From Plantactinospora soyae (lineage in GTDB: Bacteria; Actinomycetota; Actinomycetes; Mycobacteriales; Micromonosporaceae), in assembly GCF_014874095.1 (NCBI RefSeq), contig NZ_JADBEB010000001.1, positions 620,001 through 684,000 of the forward strand: DNA of 64,000 nt. Direction: 5' to 3'. Below, piece after piece: positions 6,344 to 33,566 of the stretch (its first letter is position 1; every line of letters begins with the position of its first letter). The translations under genes were made by a program, and so were the position numbers. The notes beneath the pieces were generated by a model, which worked only from the letters and a program-made list of their open reading frames with translations, did not search any database and was not told where the DNA came from.

Positions 6344-6396
6344 GCCACGCCGGCCCGTCGGGCATCGACCGGCCTCGTCGCGGCGTTGTCCGGCAC

Positions 6397-7353
6397 ATGA
6401 GCACCGAACAACTCGAACCGGAGCGCGCCGAGTCGGCCGCTCTGGACGCGTACTCGCAGGTGGTCACCACCGTGGCGGCGCGGGTGCTGCCGAGCGTGGC
6501 GGCGCTGGCCGTACGGAGCCCGCGCGGCGCCGGGGCCGGCTCGGCGGTGACCTTCACCGACGACGGATTCCTGCTCACCAGCGCACACGTGGTGGAGGGC
6601 GCCGGCGGCGGCGTCGCGACCTTCGGTGACGGTGCGGAGGCCCGGTTCGACGTCGTCGGCGCCGACCCGCTCTCCGACCTGGCGGTCCTCCGGGTCCGGG
6701 CCACCGCCGCCCCGCCGGCCGAACTCGGCGACGCCGACCCGCTCCGGATCGGGCAACTCGTCGTCGCGGTCGGCAACCCGCTCGGGCTCGCCGGTTCGGT
6801 CACCGCGGGCGTGGTCTCCGGGCTGGGTCGGTCGCTGCCGGCCCGGGACGGTCGGGTCGTCCGGCTGATCGAGGATGTGATCCAGACCGATGCGGCGCTG
6901 AATCCGGGCAACTCCGGCGGCGCCCTCGCCGACTCTGCCGGCCGGGTGGTCGGGATCAACACGGCCGTCGCCGGCTACGGCCTCGGTCTGGCGGTGCCGA
7001 TCAACTCCACCACCCGTCAGATCATCGGCGACCTGGTCAGCAACGGGCGGGTCCGCCGGGCCTGGCTGGGTGTCGCCGGAGTGCCCGTACCGCTGCCGCC
7101 GGCCGTCGCGGAACGGACCGGGCAGCAGCGCGGACTACGGGTGGTCGAGGTGGTTCCGGACAGCCCGGCCGGGATCGCCGGGATCTACCTCGGGGATGTG
7201 ATCATCTCGGCCGGCGGTCGACAGGTGGCCAACGGGCAGAGTCTCCAGCGGCTCATGCTCGGCCCGGCGATCGGCACCCGACTGCCGATGACCCTGCTCC
7301 GCCGGTCCGCGTTCGTCGACGTCATCGCCGTACCCACCGAGCTCGCCCGCTGA
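6397..7353 (+). CDS. S1C (HtrA/DegP-like) serine protease with PDZ domain
   Basis: Trypsin-fold HtrA-like protease of 318 aa. The triad is visible as His in LLTSAHVVEG, Asp in PLSDLAVLRV and Ser in NPGNSGGAL. The protease domain covers roughly residues 20-225. A single PDZ domain (QQRGLRVVEVVPDSPAGIAGIYLGDVIIS) fills the C terminus. There is no signal peptide or transmembrane segment at the N terminus, so unlike most HtrA proteins it appears cytoplasmic. ATG 6397 begins MSTEQLEPERAESAALDAYS; no strong ribosome site is apparent. It converges with cbs, with the repeat element at 7376 between them. Confidence 0.92.
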   Translation: MSTEQLEPERAESAALDAYSQVVTTVAARVLPSVAALAVRSPRGAGAGSAVTFTDDGFLLTSAHVVEGAGGGVATFGDGAEARFDVVGADPLSDLAVLRVRATAAPPAELGDADPLRIGQLVVAVGNPLGLAGSVTAGVVSGLGRSLPARDGRVVRLIEDVIQTDAALNPGNSGGALADSAGRVVGINTAVAGYGLGLAVPINSTTRQIIGDLVSNGRVRRAWLGVAGVPVPLPPAVAERTGQQRGLRVVEVVPDSPAGIAGIYLGDVIISAGGRQVANGQSLQRLMLGPAIGTRLPMTLLRRSAFVDVIAVPTELAR

Positions 7354-7375
7354 CGTCCGCTCGTCTCGCCGGACG

Positions 7376-7430
7376 GTTAGGAAGGGCCCCTTCTTCTACA
7401 AAAAACGATAAGAAGGGGCCCTTCCTTACA
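7376..7430. repeat. dispersed repeat element, copy 1 (also a likely bidirectional terminator)
   Basis: Two G/C-rich arms, AGGAAGGGCCCCTTC and AGAAGGGGCCCTTCC, flank the spacer TCTACAAAAAACGATA. The arms are palindromic and pair with each other, so in this copy the element can form a long hairpin between the convergent protease and cbs genes. Related copies lie at 37442-37496 and 51870-51922. Confidence 0.8.
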
Positions 7431-11600: not shown

Positions 11601-12275
11601 TCAGGTGGCGATTCCGACGGCCTGCCGGACCGACTCGGGCTGGTCGAGCGCCCGGAGCATGTAGTGCGCCACGTCGGCGCGCGGTATCCGGGCTCCCCGG
11701 CGCAGATTCTGCCCGTACGCCGTGCGGTAGGTCCCGGTCAGCGGCTTGTCGGTGAGTCTCGGCGGCCGTACCACCGTCCAGTCCAGGTCACTGTCCCGGA
11801 GCAGGTCCTCCATCACCGCGAGGTCAGCGTAGGGCCTGCGCAGGATGATCTTGATCATCGGGCTCAGCAGGTTCCGCATCAGGAACCCCTCACCCGGGTC
11901 GCGCCGGGGTGGATGGGGCCGGCCCACTGAGGGCACGGTCGAGATCGGCGCGGCGCTGACCACCACGATCCGGCGTACGTCCCGGGCCCGCATCGCCGCG
12001 ATCATCGCCCCGGTGCCCCGCGACGTCACCCCGGACTCGGCGATCGAACGTGCGCCGAGTCCGGACAGGACCGCGTCGGCCTTGTCGACGGCGTCGGCGA
12101 GCACCGCCGGGTCGGGAGCGGTGAGGTCGGCCGCGACCAGCCGTACGCCGCCCTGCTCCGCACGCAGCGCCGCCGGGTTCCGGACCACCGCCGTGACGTC
12201 GTGACCAGCCGAGACGGCCTGCCGCAGGAGATGACGGCCGATGCCGCCGGTGGCCGCGAAGATGGTGAGTTTCAT
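11601..12275 (-). CDS. NAD(P)H-binding protein (NmrA-like/atypical SDR)
   Basis: Rossmann-fold NAD(P)-binding protein of the NAD(P)H-binding/NmrA-like group, 224 aa. The dinucleotide motif is IFAATGGIGRHLLRQA at the N terminus, followed by HDVTAVVRNP and DAVLSGLGARS. Whether it is an active reductase or a redox sensor is not clear, since no canonical Tyr-x-x-x-Lys is obvious. It is divergent from the TetR gene, and the two operators between them make it the likely regulatory target. Its ATG is 18 bp from the nearer operator. Confidence 0.85.
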   Translation of the reverse strand: MKLTIFAATGGIGRHLLRQAVSAGHDVTAVVRNPAALRAEQGGVRLVAADLTAPDPAVLADAVDKADAVLSGLGARSIAESGVTSRGTGAMIAAMRARDVRRIVVVSAAPISTVPSVGRPHPPRRDPGEGFLMRNLLSPMIKIILRRPYADLAVMEDLLRDSDLDWTVVRPPRLTDKPLTGTYRTAYGQNLRRGARIPRADVAHYMLRALDQPESVRQAVGIAT

Positions 12276-12293
12276 GGCACTCCCAGTTGGTTA

Positions 12294-12332
12294 GTAAGTG
12301 CTTACTCACCATCTAGAATAGTGAGTGCTCAC
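12294..12332. promoter_or_regulatory. two TetR-type operators around a -10 box
   Basis: GTAAGTGCTTAC (12294-12305) and GTGAGTGCTCAC (12321-12332) are two near-palindromes of the form GTRAGTGCTYAC, centred 27 bp apart. TAGAAT at 12314-12319 between them is a good -10 box for the TetR gene. AGTTGG and CCAACT also border the pair at 12285-12290 and 12332-12337. This is consistent with autorepression and repression of the divergent gene. Confidence 0.65.
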
Positions 12333-12398
12333 CAACTGTCAACCGGGCCGATAACGTGCTCGGTGAAGATCGGAACGAAGCCGAGTGGAAGGCGATCC

Positions 12399-13058
12399 AT
12401 GAGTCGAGCCGAGACGACCCGGGAGCGCATCCTGGCCGCCGCGTCCACGGTGATCCGGGAGCAGGGCCTCGCGCACACCACCACGAAGGAGATCGCCCGG
12501 GTCGCCGGCTACTCCGAAGCCACCCTCTACAAGCACTTCCAGGGCAAGGAGGACCTCTTCCTGGCGGTACTGCGGATCCGGCTCGCCCCGTTCATCGGGC
12601 TGATGGTCCGGCTGCCCGAGAAGGCCGGCACCGGGACCGTACCGGCGCACCTGACGGAGCTCGGCCACGAGATGCTCCGGGTGTACGAGGACTCCGGTCA
12701 GCTCGCCATGGCCCTGTTCGCCGAACCCGTGCTGCTCGAACGACAGCGCGCGGCGTTCAGCCGGATGGGCGGCGGACCGCAGCACGCGAACGCCCTGTTC
12801 GCCGAGTACCTCCGGCGGGAGCGGCAACTCGGCCGGATCGCCCCGACGGCGAACCCGGTGGCGCTGGCCAACCTCTTCCTCGGCGCGTGCTTCCACCGGG
12901 CCTTCCTCGTCGCCTTCCTGGGTCCGACCGGTCGCGACCAGCTCCTCGAGCACGATCCGGACCGGTTCGTCGAGGAACTGGTCGCGGCGATCCCGTACGG
13001 CCCCACCCCGCCGGCCGGGGAACGATCCGAAACGGCCTCGCACCTCGCCCCCTGGTGA
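12399..13058 (+). CDS. TetR/AcrR family transcriptional regulator
   Basis: One-component regulator of 219 aa. The N-terminal helix-turn-helix is clear: TRERILAAASTVIREQG, TTKEIARVAGYSEATLYKHF, GKEDLF (residues 7-57). The C-terminal ligand domain is divergent. The ATG at 12399 is preceded by GTGGAAGG. It lies opposite the NAD(P)H-binding gene with paired operators between them, the standard layout for a repressor controlling itself and a divergent oxidoreductase gene. The ligand cannot be inferred. Confidence 0.92.
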   Translation: MSRAETTRERILAAASTVIREQGLAHTTTKEIARVAGYSEATLYKHFQGKEDLFLAVLRIRLAPFIGLMVRLPEKAGTGTVPAHLTELGHEMLRVYEDSGQLAMALFAEPVLLERQRAAFSRMGGGPQHANALFAEYLRRERQLGRIAPTANPVALANLFLGACFHRAFLVAFLGPTGRDQLLEHDPDRFVEELVAAIPYGPTPPAGERSETASHLAPW

Positions 13059-28245: not shown

Positions 28246-31200
28246 TCAAACAGCCCGGACGGGGGTTGCCAGGCGGGTGAGGTGCCGCTCGACGTCGAGC
28301 CGTTCGGGCACGTTCATCCTGCGGAAGATGGCGAGTGCCCGCTCCCAGTGTCGGCGCGCCTCGATCGGGTCGTGCGGTTCCATCTGGGCGGCGATTCCGA
28401 CCAGTGCCCGTCCCTGCTCGTACGGGTGACTGATCCGGGTGGCCAACGTCAACGCATCGCGGTGGAACTGCACGGCCTCCACGGAACGTCCCTGGGCGGC
28501 GAGGGTCAGACCGATGCCGTTGAGAGCGGCCGCCTCGCTGTACGGCTCGCCGTGATGTTCTGCGGCGGTCAGCGCCAGTTGGTGGTGCCTGCGGGCGTCG
28601 TCCAGCTGTCGCAGCCCGCAGAGTGCCGCTCCCAACTCGTTGAGCGCGAACGATATCCCGAATCGGTTTCCCGTCCGTTCCCTGAGGCGCAGCGAGGCCC
28701 TCAGGTAGCGCACCGCTAGATGGTGCTGGCCGAGGCGTGACCTGACCGCGCCGATGTTGGCGAGGGCCAGGGCGACGTTGAACGTGCTCCCGGCAAGGTG
28801 TGCCATGAACAGGTGTTGCCGGTGTATCCGGAGGGCTTCCTCGTATCGCCCGAGAAACATCAGTGACAGGCCGACGCTGGGTAGGGCAGGCAGCACGTCC
28901 TGGCCTGACGATCGACGGTCGTGCAGAGAGCGCTGGTGGAGGTCGACCGAGTCGGTCAGTTTGCCGAGGTGCCAGTAGACGATCGCCAGATTCGACCTGC
29001 TGATGTTCGCTCCGTGCCGGTCGCCGATCCTCTCCCGCACCTCGATCGCCGTTTCCAGGTCCCGCTGTGCCTGCTGGCAGTCGCCGCTGCGGATATGGGA
29101 ATACGCACGGTAGTTGTACATCGTTCCGATCGCCGCCTCGTCGTCCAACTGACGCGCCGCCTCAAGCCCGTAGCGGTGGGTGTCGAGGATGTCGTCGTTG
29201 TACCCGCGAACGAAATAGAAGCGCCAGGCCACCCGAGCCAGCCGCCACGCCTGGTGCGGATGACCGTTCTCCGCCGCCAGGCGGACCAGGGCACGCAGGG
29301 TCTCCCGCTCCACATCCGGCCATTCCAGGTCCGCCCTCAGCAGGGACAGCAGATCCGGACGCAGTGGTTGATCGAGACCGAGTGTCGCCGCCATCGATGA
29401 CGTCTCCATCGCCCGGGTCGCGGCGAGGCAGGCGTGCAGGTAGTAGTCGAGGATCCGGCCGATCGCCGACCGGCACTCGCTTGGCTCGTCCGTGGACGTC
29501 GCGAGTTCGCGTGCGTAGTCGCGGACCAGATCATGGAGCCGGAACCGGCCGGCGACCGGTTCCTCCACCAGATGATGGTTGACCAGGGCCGCCACAGCGG
29601 TTTCCGCATCTGACAGCGGCACGTCCGCCAAGGCGGCTGCGGTGTCCAGACCGAAGTGCTCTCCCGGATGCAGGCCGAGCAACCGGAACATCCGGCGTAC
29701 CGGTTCGTGGAGCGGCTCGTACGAGAGGCTGAAGGCGCTGGCGACGGTATGGTCCTCCGCGGATAGTTCGCTGAGTACCGGGGTAGCCCGGTCGAGCCGT
29801 TGGGCCAGGTCCACCACTCGCCAACCGGGTCGGTGGGCGAGGCGGGCGCCCACGAGACGGATCGCCAGCGGAAGATAGCCGCAACGACGTACCACCACGG
29901 CTGCCGCCTCCGGCTCGGCGCCGACCCGATCCCGGCCGGCGACCCTCGCCAGCAGCTCGATCGCCTCGTTCCGATCGAGGACCGGTAACGACGTCGGCGG
30001 GGCATCGCCGCTGGCGAGCAGTCGTCGGCGGCTGGTCACCAGCACGAGCGTGCCGGGTGCCGCCGGAAGCAGCGGGGCCAACTGTTCACTGCTGCCCGCG
30101 TTGTCGAGCACGAGCACCGTCCGCCGGGCGGCGAGTTCCGATCGCCACAGCGCGATCCGGTGGTCGGGTTCGGTCGGGATCCGGCCGGCGGGCACGCCGA
30201 GCTGCCGCAGCAGGGTGACCAGCGCCGTCGCCGGATCCACCTGACCGCCCGCGCTGTGTCCCTGCAGGTCGACGAAGAGCTGCGCGTCGGGATAGCGGTC
30301 GGCGAGCTGGGTGGCTACCTGTACGGCCAACGCGGTCTTACCGATTCCGGCCATCCCGTCGATCACCCGCACCACCGCAGCGCCGGCGTTCGCTCCCTCC
30401 ACGGCGGCCACCAGCCCACGTACGGCCTCGGCCCGACCGGTGAAGTCGACGGCCGGCCGGGGCAGCCAACTGACTGGAAGCGCAGCCTGGTCGTCCTCGT
30501 CCCTTGGGAGAGCTGGCTTCCCGGGTCCGGATCCCGGCCGACCGGGCACCCGGGGCGCGATGACCGCCCACGGACGCTCCAGGGCGGGATCGCGGTTCAG
30601 TACCGCCTGATGGAGCTGACGTAACTCAGCACCGGGCTCGATGCCGAGCTGCTCGACCAGCACCGAACGGGCCGCACTGTAGGCGGCCAGGGCACCCGGC
30701 ACGTCCCCTTCCCGGCACAGCGCCCGCATCAACAGCGCATGGCCCCGCTCCCGCAACGGATGAGCCAGCAGATGGTCCCGCAACAACGCCACGGCCAGCC
30801 CGGGCCGCCCGGTCGCGAGGCACAACTCAGCCCGCTGCTCAACCAGACCAAGCCGCATCTCCCGTACGGTCTCGGCCCGCGCCGACAACACCGGTCCCAG
30901 CGGCAGACCGGCCAGCATCTGCCCCCGCCACCGCTCCTCAGCCCGGCCCAGCAGCTCACCGGCCTCGGGGAAGTCCTCACCGGCGAGCGCCACAGCCGCC
31001 CGCTGACACTCCGCCACGAACCCGATCAGGTCCACAGCCTCCGACGGCAGCCGAAGCTCATACCCGGATCCACGTCGGACCAGCAGACCCCGCCCCGCTT
31101 CCACCCGATCGAACATCCGCCGCAGGTTGGCCGCATAACCCCGGGTATTCGCCACCGCGGACGTCGGTGGCCTCTGCGGCCACAACTCATCGATCAGCTC

Positions 31201-31332
31201 GTCCACCCCGACCAACCGACCCGGCCGCATCGCCAGCATCGCCAACACCACCTGCTGCTTGGGCGGGCCGAGCAGCAACGGCATCCCGTCGGCGATGATC
31301 TCCAGGGGACCAAGAAGCGAAACCTGGAACAT
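28246..31332 (-). CDS. SARP/AfsR-type regulator (HTH-BTAD-NB-ARC-TPR)
   Basis: A 1028-residue Streptomyces antibiotic regulatory protein-type activator of the large AfsR class. Residues ~1-95 are the OmpR-like winged helix (MFQVSLLGPLEIIADG, YAANLRRMFD). Residues ~95-245 are the bacterial transcriptional activation domain (LGRAEERWRGQ, AYSAARSVLVEQLGIEPGAEL). A NB-ARC ATPase follows, with Walker A DGMAGIGKTALAVQVA near 325 and Walker B RTVLVLDNAGSSEQL. The C terminus from ~640 is TPR repeats. Such proteins switch on secondary metabolism or development, but no biosynthetic genes are adjacent. The ATG start is 306 bp from a direct-repeat array of SARP-site geometry. Confidence 0.93.
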   Translation of the reverse strand: MFQVSLLGPLEIIADGMPLLLGPPKQQVVLAMLAMRPGRLVGVDELIDELWPQRPPTSAVANTRGYAANLRRMFDRVEAGRGLLVRRGSGYELRLPSEAVDLIGFVAECQRAAVALAGEDFPEAGELLGRAEERWRGQMLAGLPLGPVLSARAETVREMRLGLVEQRAELCLATGRPGLAVALLRDHLLAHPLRERGHALLMRALCREGDVPGALAAYSAARSVLVEQLGIEPGAELRQLHQAVLNRDPALERPWAVIAPRVPGRPGSGPGKPALPRDEDDQAALPVSWLPRPAVDFTGRAEAVRGLVAAVEGANAGAAVVRVIDGMAGIGKTALAVQVATQLADRYPDAQLFVDLQGHSAGGQVDPATALVTLLRQLGVPAGRIPTEPDHRIALWRSELAARRTVLVLDNAGSSEQLAPLLPAAPGTLVLVTSRRRLLASGDAPPTSLPVLDRNEAIELLARVAGRDRVGAEPEAAAVVVRRCGYLPLAIRLVGARLAHRPGWRVVDLAQRLDRATPVLSELSAEDHTVASAFSLSYEPLHEPVRRMFRLLGLHPGEHFGLDTAAALADVPLSDAETAVAALVNHHLVEEPVAGRFRLHDLVRDYARELATSTDEPSECRSAIGRILDYYLHACLAATRAMETSSMAATLGLDQPLRPDLLSLLRADLEWPDVERETLRALVRLAAENGHPHQAWRLARVAWRFYFVRGYNDDILDTHRYGLEAARQLDDEAAIGTMYNYRAYSHIRSGDCQQAQRDLETAIEVRERIGDRHGANISRSNLAIVYWHLGKLTDSVDLHQRSLHDRRSSGQDVLPALPSVGLSLMFLGRYEEALRIHRQHLFMAHLAGSTFNVALALANIGAVRSRLGQHHLAVRYLRASLRLRERTGNRFGISFALNELGAALCGLRQLDDARRHHQLALTAAEHHGEPYSEAAALNGIGLTLAAQGRSVEAVQFHRDALTLATRISHPYEQGRALVGIAAQMEPHDPIEARRHWERALAIFRRMNVPERLDVERHLTRLATPVRAV

Positions 31333-31934
31333 TCAACCCCCGGTCAACAGGACAACGAATCCACCGCCACCGACACAGCCTATCGACCCTCTTGACAAGC
31401 CGTCAGCGCCCCGGATGTCCCCAGATCGTCTCAGGCGAGTTCGTCGATGCTGCAGCACACGGCCCCGGTACGGCGTCGTGCTGGCCCGGCGAGCAAAGGA
31501 TCCTGGTTGGACTTCGACCCACACTGTTCGCACCCTTGCCGAAGCCGGTGATCATCTGATCGGGCTGCCGGATGCCGCCCGCGCAGGCGCCTCGAACCGT
31601 GACGGCTGTCCTCGATCAGAAATTAGCAATTCCGACGATATCGAAAATATATCGCAAACATATCGATCTCATGTTGGCTGCTCGAATAATCTTCCCCGCA
31701 GCTTCGGCCAATCAATCGGATTTGGGGGAACCAAAAATCGATTACTCCAGATAGTTGCAATTCATATTACAGAAAAGGCGATACGCGGAAGCAGGCGCAA
31801 GCTCCCATCCGCACGTCGACCCCACAGCTCCCACCGAGCTGCCATGTTGTTCCAGAAATTTGATCCGCACCCGACGTTCCAGAACTCTGCCTCTTCGCTT
31901 TTCTCGGCGCCAGTCTCACTTAAGAAGGAGTTTG
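31333..31934. other. 602-bp AT-richer intergenic region, SARP to secreted protein
   Basis: The first ~280 bp resemble the window average and hold no supportable gene. From about 31615 to 31930 the base composition is clearly AT-richer than anything else in the window, with runs such as GAAAATATATCG and AATTCATATTACAG. It contains the heptamer array at 31638-31666 and AATAAT-type -10 candidates at 31685-31692. It probably holds the promoters of both divergent genes; this is inference. Confidence 0.6.
31638..31666 (-). promoter_or_regulatory. three heptamer direct repeats, SARP-type operator
   Basis: Plus strand: ATATCGA (31638), ATATCGC (31649) and ATATCGA (31660) with 4-bp spacers, exactly 11 bp apart. 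On the minus strand they read TCGATAT, GCGATAT, TCGATAT. SARP proteins are known to bind heptamer direct repeats on one helical face with 11-bp periodicity, near the -10 box. On the minus strand GCTAAT follows the last repeat by about 10 bp. The orientation therefore favours the SARP gene itself, though the secreted-protein gene is also possible. Confidence 0.5.
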
Positions 31935-33566
31935 ATGTACCTGTTGATGCGTCTACCTGTGACCGCACGGCTGCTGACCCTGTCAGCTCTCACTGCGGGC
32001 ACGGTTGCCGTTTCCGGCGCATTGTTCGTCGGTGTCGCCGCAGCGGCCCCGACGGATCCCATTGGCGATATCGATCCCTATGCGTCCATGGTCACCGAGG
32101 CGTCCTCGCAGCTCATGGAGGATCTCCTGGCGCTACAACCCGGATCGCAGAACGGGGGGATCTACGCCAACAAGGACGGCTACCACAACACCCGGGCGGG
32201 AAACGATACGGACGACTATTCCGTCCGGGACGTCGAGGACAAGGGTGGTCCAGCCGATAAAGCCGCAGCATACGACTGGACCTTCCCCGAGGCCCGAGGG
32301 TCGAGCCCCAACTACAGCAACATCGCCCGGTACTCCAATCGACTCCTCGCCTCCACCAGGGATCCGAACGACCCTCGCCTGGACGGATGGCGGGAATTTT
32401 TCGGCCAAGCCGACAACGACGGCGACGTGGAGGGCTGGGACTTCCGGTATGGCCGCGCGGCTTCATCTGACAACACGCACTTATGGCACATTCACCTTAG
32501 CGAGGACCGCGACAAGGTCACCAGGTTCGACAACAAGGAAGCACTGCTCAGTGTTCTTCGGGGGGAGACTACTCGAGAGTGGCGGAACAAGCCGGTCAGT
32601 CCGATTCTGGGGTACGACTCCGGGGCGTCGACCGTGCTGTACCGGTGGGGATCTACCGGTTCTTCGTTCAGTGGCCTGAGCACCGCGACGCACTCCTCTT
32701 TCGATCTGGACAACGTCGGTGACCGATTCGCCTCCGGTGACGTGAACGCAGACGGCAAGGACGACACCGTCATGGCCCACCAGAACCCCGACACCAGCTT
32801 CACGTTCAAGGTCTTCCTCAACGGAACCTCCACCCCGCAGAACTGGTACACCTCCGGCCCGATGAACCTCACCCCGGTCGGTAACCGACTCATCGTCGGC
32901 GACTTCAACGGCGACCGCAAACACGAGCCGATCCTCGCCTACGACTCCGGAACCGCAACCATCCTCTACCGCTGGTACTCCACCGGAGCATCATTCAGCA
33001 ACCTCAGCACCGCCACCTACTCCTCCTTCGACCTCGACAACGTCGGCACAAGAATCGCCGCCGGCGACGTCAACGCAGACGGCAAAGACGACACCGTCAT
33101 GGCCTACCAGAACACCGACACCAGCTTCACCTACAAAGTATTCCGCAGCGGCACCATCGCCCCGGAAAACTGGTACACCTCCGGCCCGATGAACCTCACC
33201 CCCGTCGGTAACCGACTCATCGTCGGCGACTTCAACGGCGACCGCAAACACGAGCCGATCCTCGCCTACGACTCCGGAACCGCAACCATCCTCTACCGCT
33301 GGTACTCCACCGGAGCATCATTCAGCAACCTCAGCACCGCCACCTACTCCTCCTTCGACCTCGACAACGTCGGCACCAGAATCGCCGCCGGCGACGTCAA
33401 CGCAGACGGCAAAGACGACACCGTCATGGCCTACCAGAACACCGACACCAGCTTCACCTACAAAGTATTCCGCAGCGGCACCATCGCCCCGGAAAACTGG
33501 TACACCTCCGGCCCAATGAACCTCACCCCCGTCGGCGACCGACTAATCCTCGGCGCCTGGCTGTAA
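31935..33566 (+). CDS. secreted protein, M15-like N-terminal domain plus FG-GAP/VCBS-like repeats
   Basis: A 543-residue exported protein. The signal peptide spans about residues 1-38, ending AAAAPTDP. Residues ~60-215 form a domain seen in streptomycete secreted proteins. The motifs KDGYHNTRAG, DKAAAYDWTF and THLWHIHLSEDRDKV could supply His, Asp and His zinc ligands as in M15/VanY-type peptidases (inference). Three repeats of ~109 residues follow, each with a calcium-type loop DVNADGKDD or DFNGDRKHE, as in VCBS/FG-GAP beta-propeller repeats. ATG 31935 was chosen over an upstream in-frame start because AAGGAG precedes it by 4 nt and the signal peptide begins there. Third-position G/C is lower than in neighbours. 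Confidence 0.85.
   Translation: MYLLMRLPVTARLLTLSALTAGTVAVSGALFVGVAAAAPTDPIGDIDPYASMVTEASSQLMEDLLALQPGSQNGGIYANKDGYHNTRAGNDTDDYSVRDVEDKGGPADKAAAYDWTFPEARGSSPNYSNIARYSNRLLASTRDPNDPRLDGWREFFGQADNDGDVEGWDFRYGRAASSDNTHLWHIHLSEDRDKVTRFDNKEALLSVLRGETTREWRNKPVSPILGYDSGASTVLYRWGSTGSSFSGLSTATHSSFDLDNVGDRFASGDVNADGKDDTVMAHQNPDTSFTFKVFLNGTSTPQNWYTSGPMNLTPVGNRLIVGDFNGDRKHEPILAYDSGTATILYRWYSTGASFSNLSTATYSSFDLDNVGTRIAAGDVNADGKDDTVMAYQNTDTSFTYKVFRSGTIAPENWYTSGPMNLTPVGNRLIVGDFNGDRKHEPILAYDSGTATILYRWYSTGASFSNLSTATYSSFDLDNVGTRIAAGDVNADGKDDTVMAYQNTDTSFTYKVFRSGTIAPENWYTSGPMNLTPVGDRLILGAWL
32894..33547 (+). repeat. two near-identical 327-bp units inside the secreted protein gene
   Basis: Units 32894-33220 and 33221-33547 encode 109 residues each. 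They differ at only a few bases over most of their length (for example GGCACAAGAATC versus GGCACCAGAATC). The unit before 32894 is clearly diverged. This indicates recent duplication or ongoing gene conversion. Confidence 0.85.

Follow-up and report, generated by a model that had tools for sequence, protein, structure and literature searches.

The analysed stretch of DNA, referred to here as the window, comprises 64,000 nucleotides of the Plantactinospora soyae genome. Two divergent genes flank the array of repeats described here. On the minus strand, positions 28246–31332 encode a large SARP of 1028 amino acids, a predicted activator composed of a winged helix followed by BTAD, NB-ARC and TPR parts. 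Its BTAD match (1.2e-32) lies above the cut-off, and its Trans_reg_C match (3.7e-05, 24.1 bits) falls under the cut-off of 26.2. The nearest solved relative is AfsR (8k60, E 3.9e-105, with the alignment starting at residue 4). Since the protein scores 500.7 bits against the NCBIfam AfsR equivalog NF053617, below its cut-off of 1430, we consider it AfsR-like and not AfsR itself. On the plus strand, positions 31935–33566 encode the predicted target, a secreted-looking protein of 543 amino acids with a conserved N-terminal domain that carries an HLWHIH motif and precedes FG-GAP repeats. Its start was read as the ATG at 31935, and its signal-like N-terminus was judged by eye, with no signal-peptide program. 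The N-terminal domain keeps an invariant H-W-H-I-H in an alignment of 19 rows and has no convincing family match in Pfam, PHROGs or NCBIfam. The initial annotation had described the neighbours as a SARP/NB-ARC/TPR regulator and a secreted protein, and the domains agree with this. The genome as a whole holds 48 BTAD matches, and its own paralogue of the FG-GAP N-terminal domain (L163, 4,682,000–4,694,000) has two divergent BTAD genes nearby, between which a TGGCAAC-type period-11 triple scores 17 of 21. The open-access literature yielded no paper joining SARP (or BTAD with NB-ARC) with FG-GAP, in a search that most subscription papers lay outside.

Between the two genes, the plus strand carries ATATCGA (31638–31644), ATATCGC (31649–31655) and ATATCGA (31660–31666), separated by 4-bp spacers in an exact 11-bp period, with the core TATCG at 31639–31643, 31650–31654 and 31661–31665. 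The three starts, 31638, 31649 and 31660, and the minus-strand heptamers TCGATAT, GCGATAT and TCGATAT are as the initial annotation gave them. A degenerate fourth repeat, ATGTTGG (31671–31677, plus strand), continues the 11-bp register with TGTTG at the core position, keeping three of the five core bases, and occupies the helix turn that separates the third repeat from the -10 box. The array also lies, as had been proposed, in the only strongly AT-rich stretch of the window: GC over 150 nt is lowest at 31620, at 0.40 against 0.71 overall, and the sole other place below 0.52 is 12258–12409, at 0.51. With up to three mismatches, the pattern matched this place alone in the window (in two overlapping registers) and nothing in 100 window shuffles; with up to two, the array itself was the single match in the whole genome of 9,715,930 bp. 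When the AT-rich 200 bp (31601–31800) were shuffled 1000 times by a first-order Markov scheme, an equally good period-11 heptamer triple arose once, and an equally good triple at any period from 8 to 18 arose five times.

Downstream of the repeats, TAATCT (31687–31692, plus strand) forms a -10 box at a distance of exactly 21 nt (10 + 11) from the third TATCG and 10 nt from the degenerate fourth core; transcription from this box would start near 31699. The third perfect core has the same 21-nt offset in four related loci (L196–L199), and the window's three perfect repeats thus stand one turn farther from the -10 box than in most relatives. No consensus sigma-70 promoter was detected in 31333–31960, and the -35 region of the predicted target promoter is poor, as at SARP operators. 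According to the part of PMC10936776 available to us, SARP direct repeats recur every 11 or 22 bp, with the last one 8 bp from the -10 box. Written as TATCGNN, the last heptamer matches this rule of PMC10936776, as far as that text was available, and in the window the 8-bp spacing is seen solely at the degenerate fourth repeat. In the 120 nt following nine arrays, TANNNT occurred 11 times, nine of them at offset 10 or 21. The proposal of a SARP-type operator is supported by the 11-bp period together with a -10 box in the canonical register, with one amendment: TATCGNN describes the heptamer better than the TCGAnnn suggested earlier. The TATCG strand faces the secreted FG-GAP gene.

Relatives of the window SARP were searched in 150 genomes at E 1e-250, which gave 19 rows, one of them the window's own, and the surroundings of 17 were taken; other clade members may therefore exist. 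L077 and L093 came from a separate search of SARP loci, and L074 was left out for its helix of another type. In a tree of 41 rows, 19 SARPs, the window's included, formed one clade at 100/100 (L200 was too short for the tree); the clade's named members are Micromonosporaceae. The recognition helix of the window SARP is SAVANTRGYAANLRR, and close forms, SA[VI][AP]N plus a similar helix, occur in L003/L193, L009/L194, L010/L195, L063–L066/L196–L199, L068–L073, L075–L077 and L093, in a comparison that omitted L067. L004/L200 keeps only the beginning of this helix; this SARP copy (G006) is without much of the DNA-binding and BTAD region and retains both an operator and the structured element described below. 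The helix by itself is not diagnostic of the clade: another SARP of the same genome, at 7,988,420, which has no exact triple and was not among the rows of the tree, carries the SAVAN-type helix SAVANLRTYASGLRR at 37% overall identity. Aligned to 8k60, R87, R94 and K95 of AfsR correspond to R64, R71 and R72 of the window SARP, T88 to G65 and R92 to N69; the contact residues are those named in section 7 of PMC10936776, as far as available, with the numbering matched through shared sequence. Because the base-reading positions differ from those of AfsR, a changed DNA core would be consistent with the protein.

To count the operator across SARP loci, we defined it as an exact TATCG pair at 11 bp with TANNNT 10, 21 or 32 nt (10 + 11k) after the second core. 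The count covered 450,399 bases: the whole window, 17 stretches of about 20 kb, L172 (18 kb), and L077 and L093 (15 kb each). The most frequent start-to-start distance between exact TATCG cores was 11 bp (25 pairs), followed by distances of 22 (8 pairs, as triples give) and 10 (7 pairs). TANNNT stood at 10, 21 or 32 nt in all 25 pairs, overlapping pairs of a triple being counted apart; its background frequency across the 21 loci is about 0.0009 per base. The 25 pairs make up 20 arrays in 20 of the 21 loci, a count in which close orthologues (L196–L199 and several of L201–L209) are not independent; as L172 had been found by the motif itself, the count without it is 19 of 20. The two-repeat form was defined after looking: it was seen in the DNA 3' of stop codons and then counted, the three-repeat scans having missed the two-repeat operators of L201–L209, L077 and L093. 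The operator occurred in none of 43 other SARP loci (46 less L077, L093 and L122; 615 kb scanned). Of these 43, 21 were included in the tree, and none of the 21 fell within the clade.

In all 20 operator loci the TATCG strand faces the sequence that follows, and the SARP gene adjoins the operator in 20 of the 21. At 18 of these loci the site is oriented like the SARP gene and sits either immediately beyond the gene's first in-frame stop codon or no more than about 110 nt from it, where it can serve only the downstream sequence; in the other two, the window and L172, the TATCG strand faces an FG-GAP-type gene. In the comparison with related genomes suggested in the initial annotation, the 11-bp period is kept in 20 of 21 loci and is absent at L193 (G004), the closest orthologue of the window SARP, where no operator was found even at one mismatch with the -10 at 10 or 21. 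That annotation had named as refuting evidence an orthologous locus that keeps both genes and lacks the repeats. No such locus was encountered: L193 is without the array, but its genome, G004, has no FG-GAP relative at E 1e-30. Since this closest orthologue lacks the operator, the combination of SARP, array and FG-GAP gene is seen in the window and in G047 only.

We also searched 354 genomes of the family. Three ATATCG repeats with at most one mismatch gave four matches, the window among them. In G047 (L126/L172), the array lies 70–97 nt before a secreted-looking gene in the same orientation, whose FG-GAP matches are weak and below the Pfam cut-off, and the SARP gene follows on the same strand. 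In the tree, the L172 SARP sits on a long branch away from the clade, and we treat this link as a separate case. Of the other two matches, one is close to an ABC-type solute-binding-like gene and one precedes a PadR-like gene, both genes being named from sequence. The exact TATCG triple matched nine times in eight of the 354 genomes, and a reversed-pattern control five times. Four of the nine are beside clade SARPs and one beside the G047 SARP, all five with the -10 in register; the remaining four, around which a SARP was sought within 1.5 kb on either side, have no -10 in register. Both clade SARPs of the window's own genome have an exact triple beside them, and these two are the only ones in that genome. 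Within the genus, the triple at one mismatch gave eight matches in seven genomes (control, one), four at clade SARPs and four without the -10 in register, one of the latter (L220) near a different SARP-like gene. Two cores followed by 10 nt and TANNNT, at one mismatch, likewise gave eight matches in seven genomes (control, one); four of the eight, including both from the window's own genome, are at clade SARPs, and this pattern is blind to the window's own site.

Several further sites resemble the operator. One (L194:6315–6357, plus strand; positions 1,885,314–1,885,356 of the window's own genome) has two core mismatches with TAGGCT at 10 nt, and lies 2 kb from the paralogous SARP and before a secreted-looking ORF (6377..7393). 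In L220 and L225 (G003), similar TATCG pairs are followed by CACATACG, and one of these sites is less than 1 kb from a different SARP-like gene (30% identity). The array does not appear to be a property of the FG-GAP family, an idea we rejected: among 21 loci with relatives of the N-terminal domain, some with uncertain starts, none had a period-11 triple (score of at least 16 of 21) in the 450 bp or less examined upstream.

The idea that all SARP genes have such arrays was likewise rejected, as the period-11 excess is only moderate. In the 500 bp upstream of 48 SARP genes of this genome, the window's included, triples scoring at least 19 occurred at period 11 in 4 of 48 genes, and at other periods in none or one; at a score of at least 17, period 11 had 9 of 48, periods 9 and 15 had 6, and period 18 had 5. 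Across 61 upstream regions of the window gene and its relatives, whose sequences are related, scores of at least 18 occurred nine times at period 11 and at most once at others, and scores of at least 17 occurred 13 times at period 11 and eight times at period 12. We claim no single rule for all SARPs, because the distance to TANNNT is not constant among the other arrays of this genome. Sister Micromonosporaceae SARPs (L080, L083–L085, L092 and others) have period-11 CGCTNTC arrays at about -100 to -70 before their own starts. Actinomadura SARPs (L104, L105, L107, L109 and L114, of GTCCATG type, and L099, with GTCCTGG three times) have period-11 triples about 240–415 nt before the start. Two other BTAD genes of the window's genome, at 1,039,814 and 535,208 (L141, L144), have the perfect triples CTGCCGT (-77) and CTGTCGG (-70).

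Overall, the repeats, the -10 register and the same geometry and orientation recur across the SARP clade, which strongly supports reading the array as a SARP operator, of a known kind with a clade-specific core. Its most likely target is the secreted-looking gene, in agreement with that part of the earlier proposal. We regard it as quite probable that the array is an activator operator through which the divergent AfsR-like SARP, or a close paralogue, drives the FG-GAP gene at 31935–33566. Copies of the SARP would occupy the TATCG repeats side by side on successive helix turns, compensate for the absent -35 element and bring RNA polymerase to TAATCT at 31687–31692. This would lead to rightward transcription of the FG-GAP gene and perhaps of genes beyond, in response to a signal presumably read by the NB-ARC/TPR part. 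We infer binding, activation, the start site and the choice between the two paralogous SARPs from the sequence. Several observations weigh against this reading: the missing operator at L193, the lack of period-11 triples upstream of the 21 relatives of the FG-GAP N-terminal domain, the extra turn between the perfect repeats and the -10 box with a fourth repeat that keeps three of five core bases, N69 in place of R92, and the inconstant -10 distance of the other SARP arrays of this genome.

The same operator might instead be worked by the paralogous SARP at 1,887,338–1,890,412, or by both proteins, and not mainly by the adjacent one. The paralogue is 59% identical overall to the window SARP, has the near-identical recognition helix SAVANTRSYAANLRR, and its own operator has the same core, but the presence of a SARP gene next to the operator in 20 of 21 loci makes this unlikely. 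An unrelated regulator recognising AT-rich motifs, for example of the PadR type, is suggested by CGATAT repeats before the PadR-like gene of L124 (one of the four motif matches, its family read from sequence). We consider such a regulator very unlikely, as the PadR-like match (L211) has no -10 in register, and the SARP-gene link and -10 register in 20 of 21 loci would be left unexplained. Coincidence is made easier by the AT-rich composition of the spacer, as the local shuffles show, but chance would have to account for the same core, period, orientation and -10 register in the clade and for their absence from the 43 other SARP loci, and is extremely improbable.

A further possibility is that one array serves both directions, activating the FG-GAP gene and, through the palindrome CGATATCG (31636–31643), also the SARP gene. 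In the earlier interpretation, autoregulation is the less well supported part. The two genes are divergent, and the minus-strand TATCG of the palindrome stands exactly 10 nt before a possible divergent -10 box, TAATTT (31620–31625, minus strand), a weak candidate for transcription toward the SARP gene. Against a bidirectional role, only one minus-strand core is perfect, the next two positions (TATAT and TATGT) matching three of five bases, whereas efficient binding by PimR needs at least two monomers in the available part of PMC5930380, and by our own estimate from local base composition, TANNNT at that single offset is expected in about 2% of cases by chance. The SARP gene also has a candidate proximal -10 box of its own at about -50: TAGGCT in TCGATAGGCT (31377–31382, minus strand), some 50 nt before the start. 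CGATA followed by a TANNNT-like box occurs at a similar place in L003, L009 and L010. Moreover, in the 18 loci where the site comes after the SARP stop codon, it is unable to drive the SARP. Of the 19 other clade SARPs, 18 (all but L067) were searched over 800 bp upstream, as was the L172 SARP, and none had an ATATCG pair at 11 bp (at most two mismatches). An operator upstream of the SARP gene is thus not conserved in these orthologues, and we rejected conserved autoregulation; "probably autoregulation", as stated in the initial annotation, is unsupported, given the position of the site in 18 of 20 loci. A bidirectional function in the window itself seems rather unlikely, and activation of the FG-GAP gene remains the reading we prefer.

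In the relatives, the operator precedes other sequences. In L196–L199 it lies before the gene of an nSTAND1-domain protein (L198: E 6.6e-81; the others by position and a like start sequence), and in 14 loci (L194, L195, L200, L201–L209, L077 and L093) it is followed by a structured stretch, the most unexpected by-product of the analysis. This conserved element has three hairpins and about 150 nt (L201:11379–11528, plus strand) and lies between the SARP gene and, in 12 of the 14 loci, a moaC-like gene, named from sequence, whose start falls within the 420 nt read. Across 11 sequences and 31 of 34 predicted pairs, 14 pairs had two-sided changes, a number reached in none of 500 shuffles (mean 7.2) and compared with 0–6 in slid controls; the structure was derived from the same alignment, which favours covariation, and the 11 sequences are related. 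Single-fold z values were -4.3 (L201), -3.7 (L206) and -2.7 (L195).

An RNA model built from the 11 sequences (R2) recovered the element in the three left-out loci, in the corresponding position (E 7e-5 to 8e-4), and had no match in the leaders of the window, L172, L193 or L196–L199. Against the element, R2 also matches more weakly elsewhere, for example at L203:877 (E 0.02), matches the opposite strand of the element, and gave five matches (E 0.013–0.097) among the 43 other SARP loci. Weak matches lie about 200 nt before two sister-clade SARP starts on the plus strand (L082:1863–1990, E 0.013; L081:5670–5797, E 0.054). A model from the other three sequences (R1) returned those three only from the 354 genomes under strict filters. 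In the fetched loci it also matched L206 (E 7e-4), weakly L208, L209, L093 and L201 at the same place (E 0.12–0.91), and the opposite strand three times (L194, L195 and L200). A structured leader in the window was rejected, with z +1.0 and no R1 or R2 match there; the one R2 match in the window (E 0.73) lies away from the leader.

In ten scanned loci, no Rfam family reached its gathering score, and the best match below it was a plant-virus element (E 1e-4) on the opposite strand of L195. Identity with a Moco riboswitch was rejected, as the matches at E<=5 included no Moco family, only others below gathering scores. So was a small protein in place of an RNA: the 11 sequences share no consistent reading frame, although L205 and L208 are open in all frames. 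The element may be a SARP-driven small RNA. In the open-access literature, no paper was found on SARP with Micromonospora small or noncoding RNA or with moaC; most subscription papers lay outside the search.

Taken together, these observations allow a broader reading, which we offer tentatively as plausible but not yet probable. An AfsR-like SARP clade would activate a conserved structured RNA of about 150 nt encoded immediately downstream of the SARP gene, in an arrangement that mirrors afsR-afsS with an RNA as its product. The window would be a derived duplicate with the operator before a secreted beta-propeller-type protein, and in another genus the operator would stand before an nSTAND1 ATPase; the operator would then be a movable module by which a single sensor is connected to a variety of outputs. 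If the structured element is indeed the regulator's common partner, possibly as a small RNA, this would be an unusual SARP output. Actinomycetes have many large AfsR-like SARPs, of which, to our knowledge, few have known targets. For one such clade, sequence alone provides a DNA core, a -10 register and a likely target gene, and with core and register in hand, targets can be read off genomes.

Among known systems, the AfsR operator (the afs box in the afsS promoter of Streptomyces coelicolor) offers a close comparison. AfsR shares the architecture of SARP, NB-ARC/NOD and TPR, and at afsR-afsS, as in most of the relatives, the SARP gene is followed directly by the site. The afs box has two repeats and the window three to four; R92 of AfsR contacts T-38, where the window SARP has N69; and instead of AfsS, what appears to be controlled here is an FG-GAP protein, an nSTAND1 ATPase or a structured element. 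The two operators share 11-bp direct repeats, a poor -35 and a fixed distance to the -10, as described in the available part of PMC10936776. In the part of PMC10972967 at hand, the AfsR repeat is reported as CGTT(T/C)ATCGNN; the window repeat shares its ATCG and is without the GTT half.

The main PimR operator (the pimM promoter of Streptomyces natalensis) has, in the accessible portions of PMC5930380 and PMC10972967, three heptamers with 4-nt spacers in an array clear of the -35; the likeness to the window lies in perfect repeats one turn away from the canonical place. Its heptamer is CGGCAAG, unlike TATCGNN, its target is a PAS-LuxR regulator gene, and PimR itself has a guanylate-cyclase/LAL-like half in place of NB-ARC/TPR. 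ActII-ORF4 and DnrI are small SARPs of antibiotic clusters, unlike the large SARP of the window. Their heptamers have a TCGA consensus, which is loosely shared here, as TATCGA contains TCGA. They bind heptameric direct repeats that overlap the -35 region, and sites with three repeats exist, according to the available part of PMC10972967.
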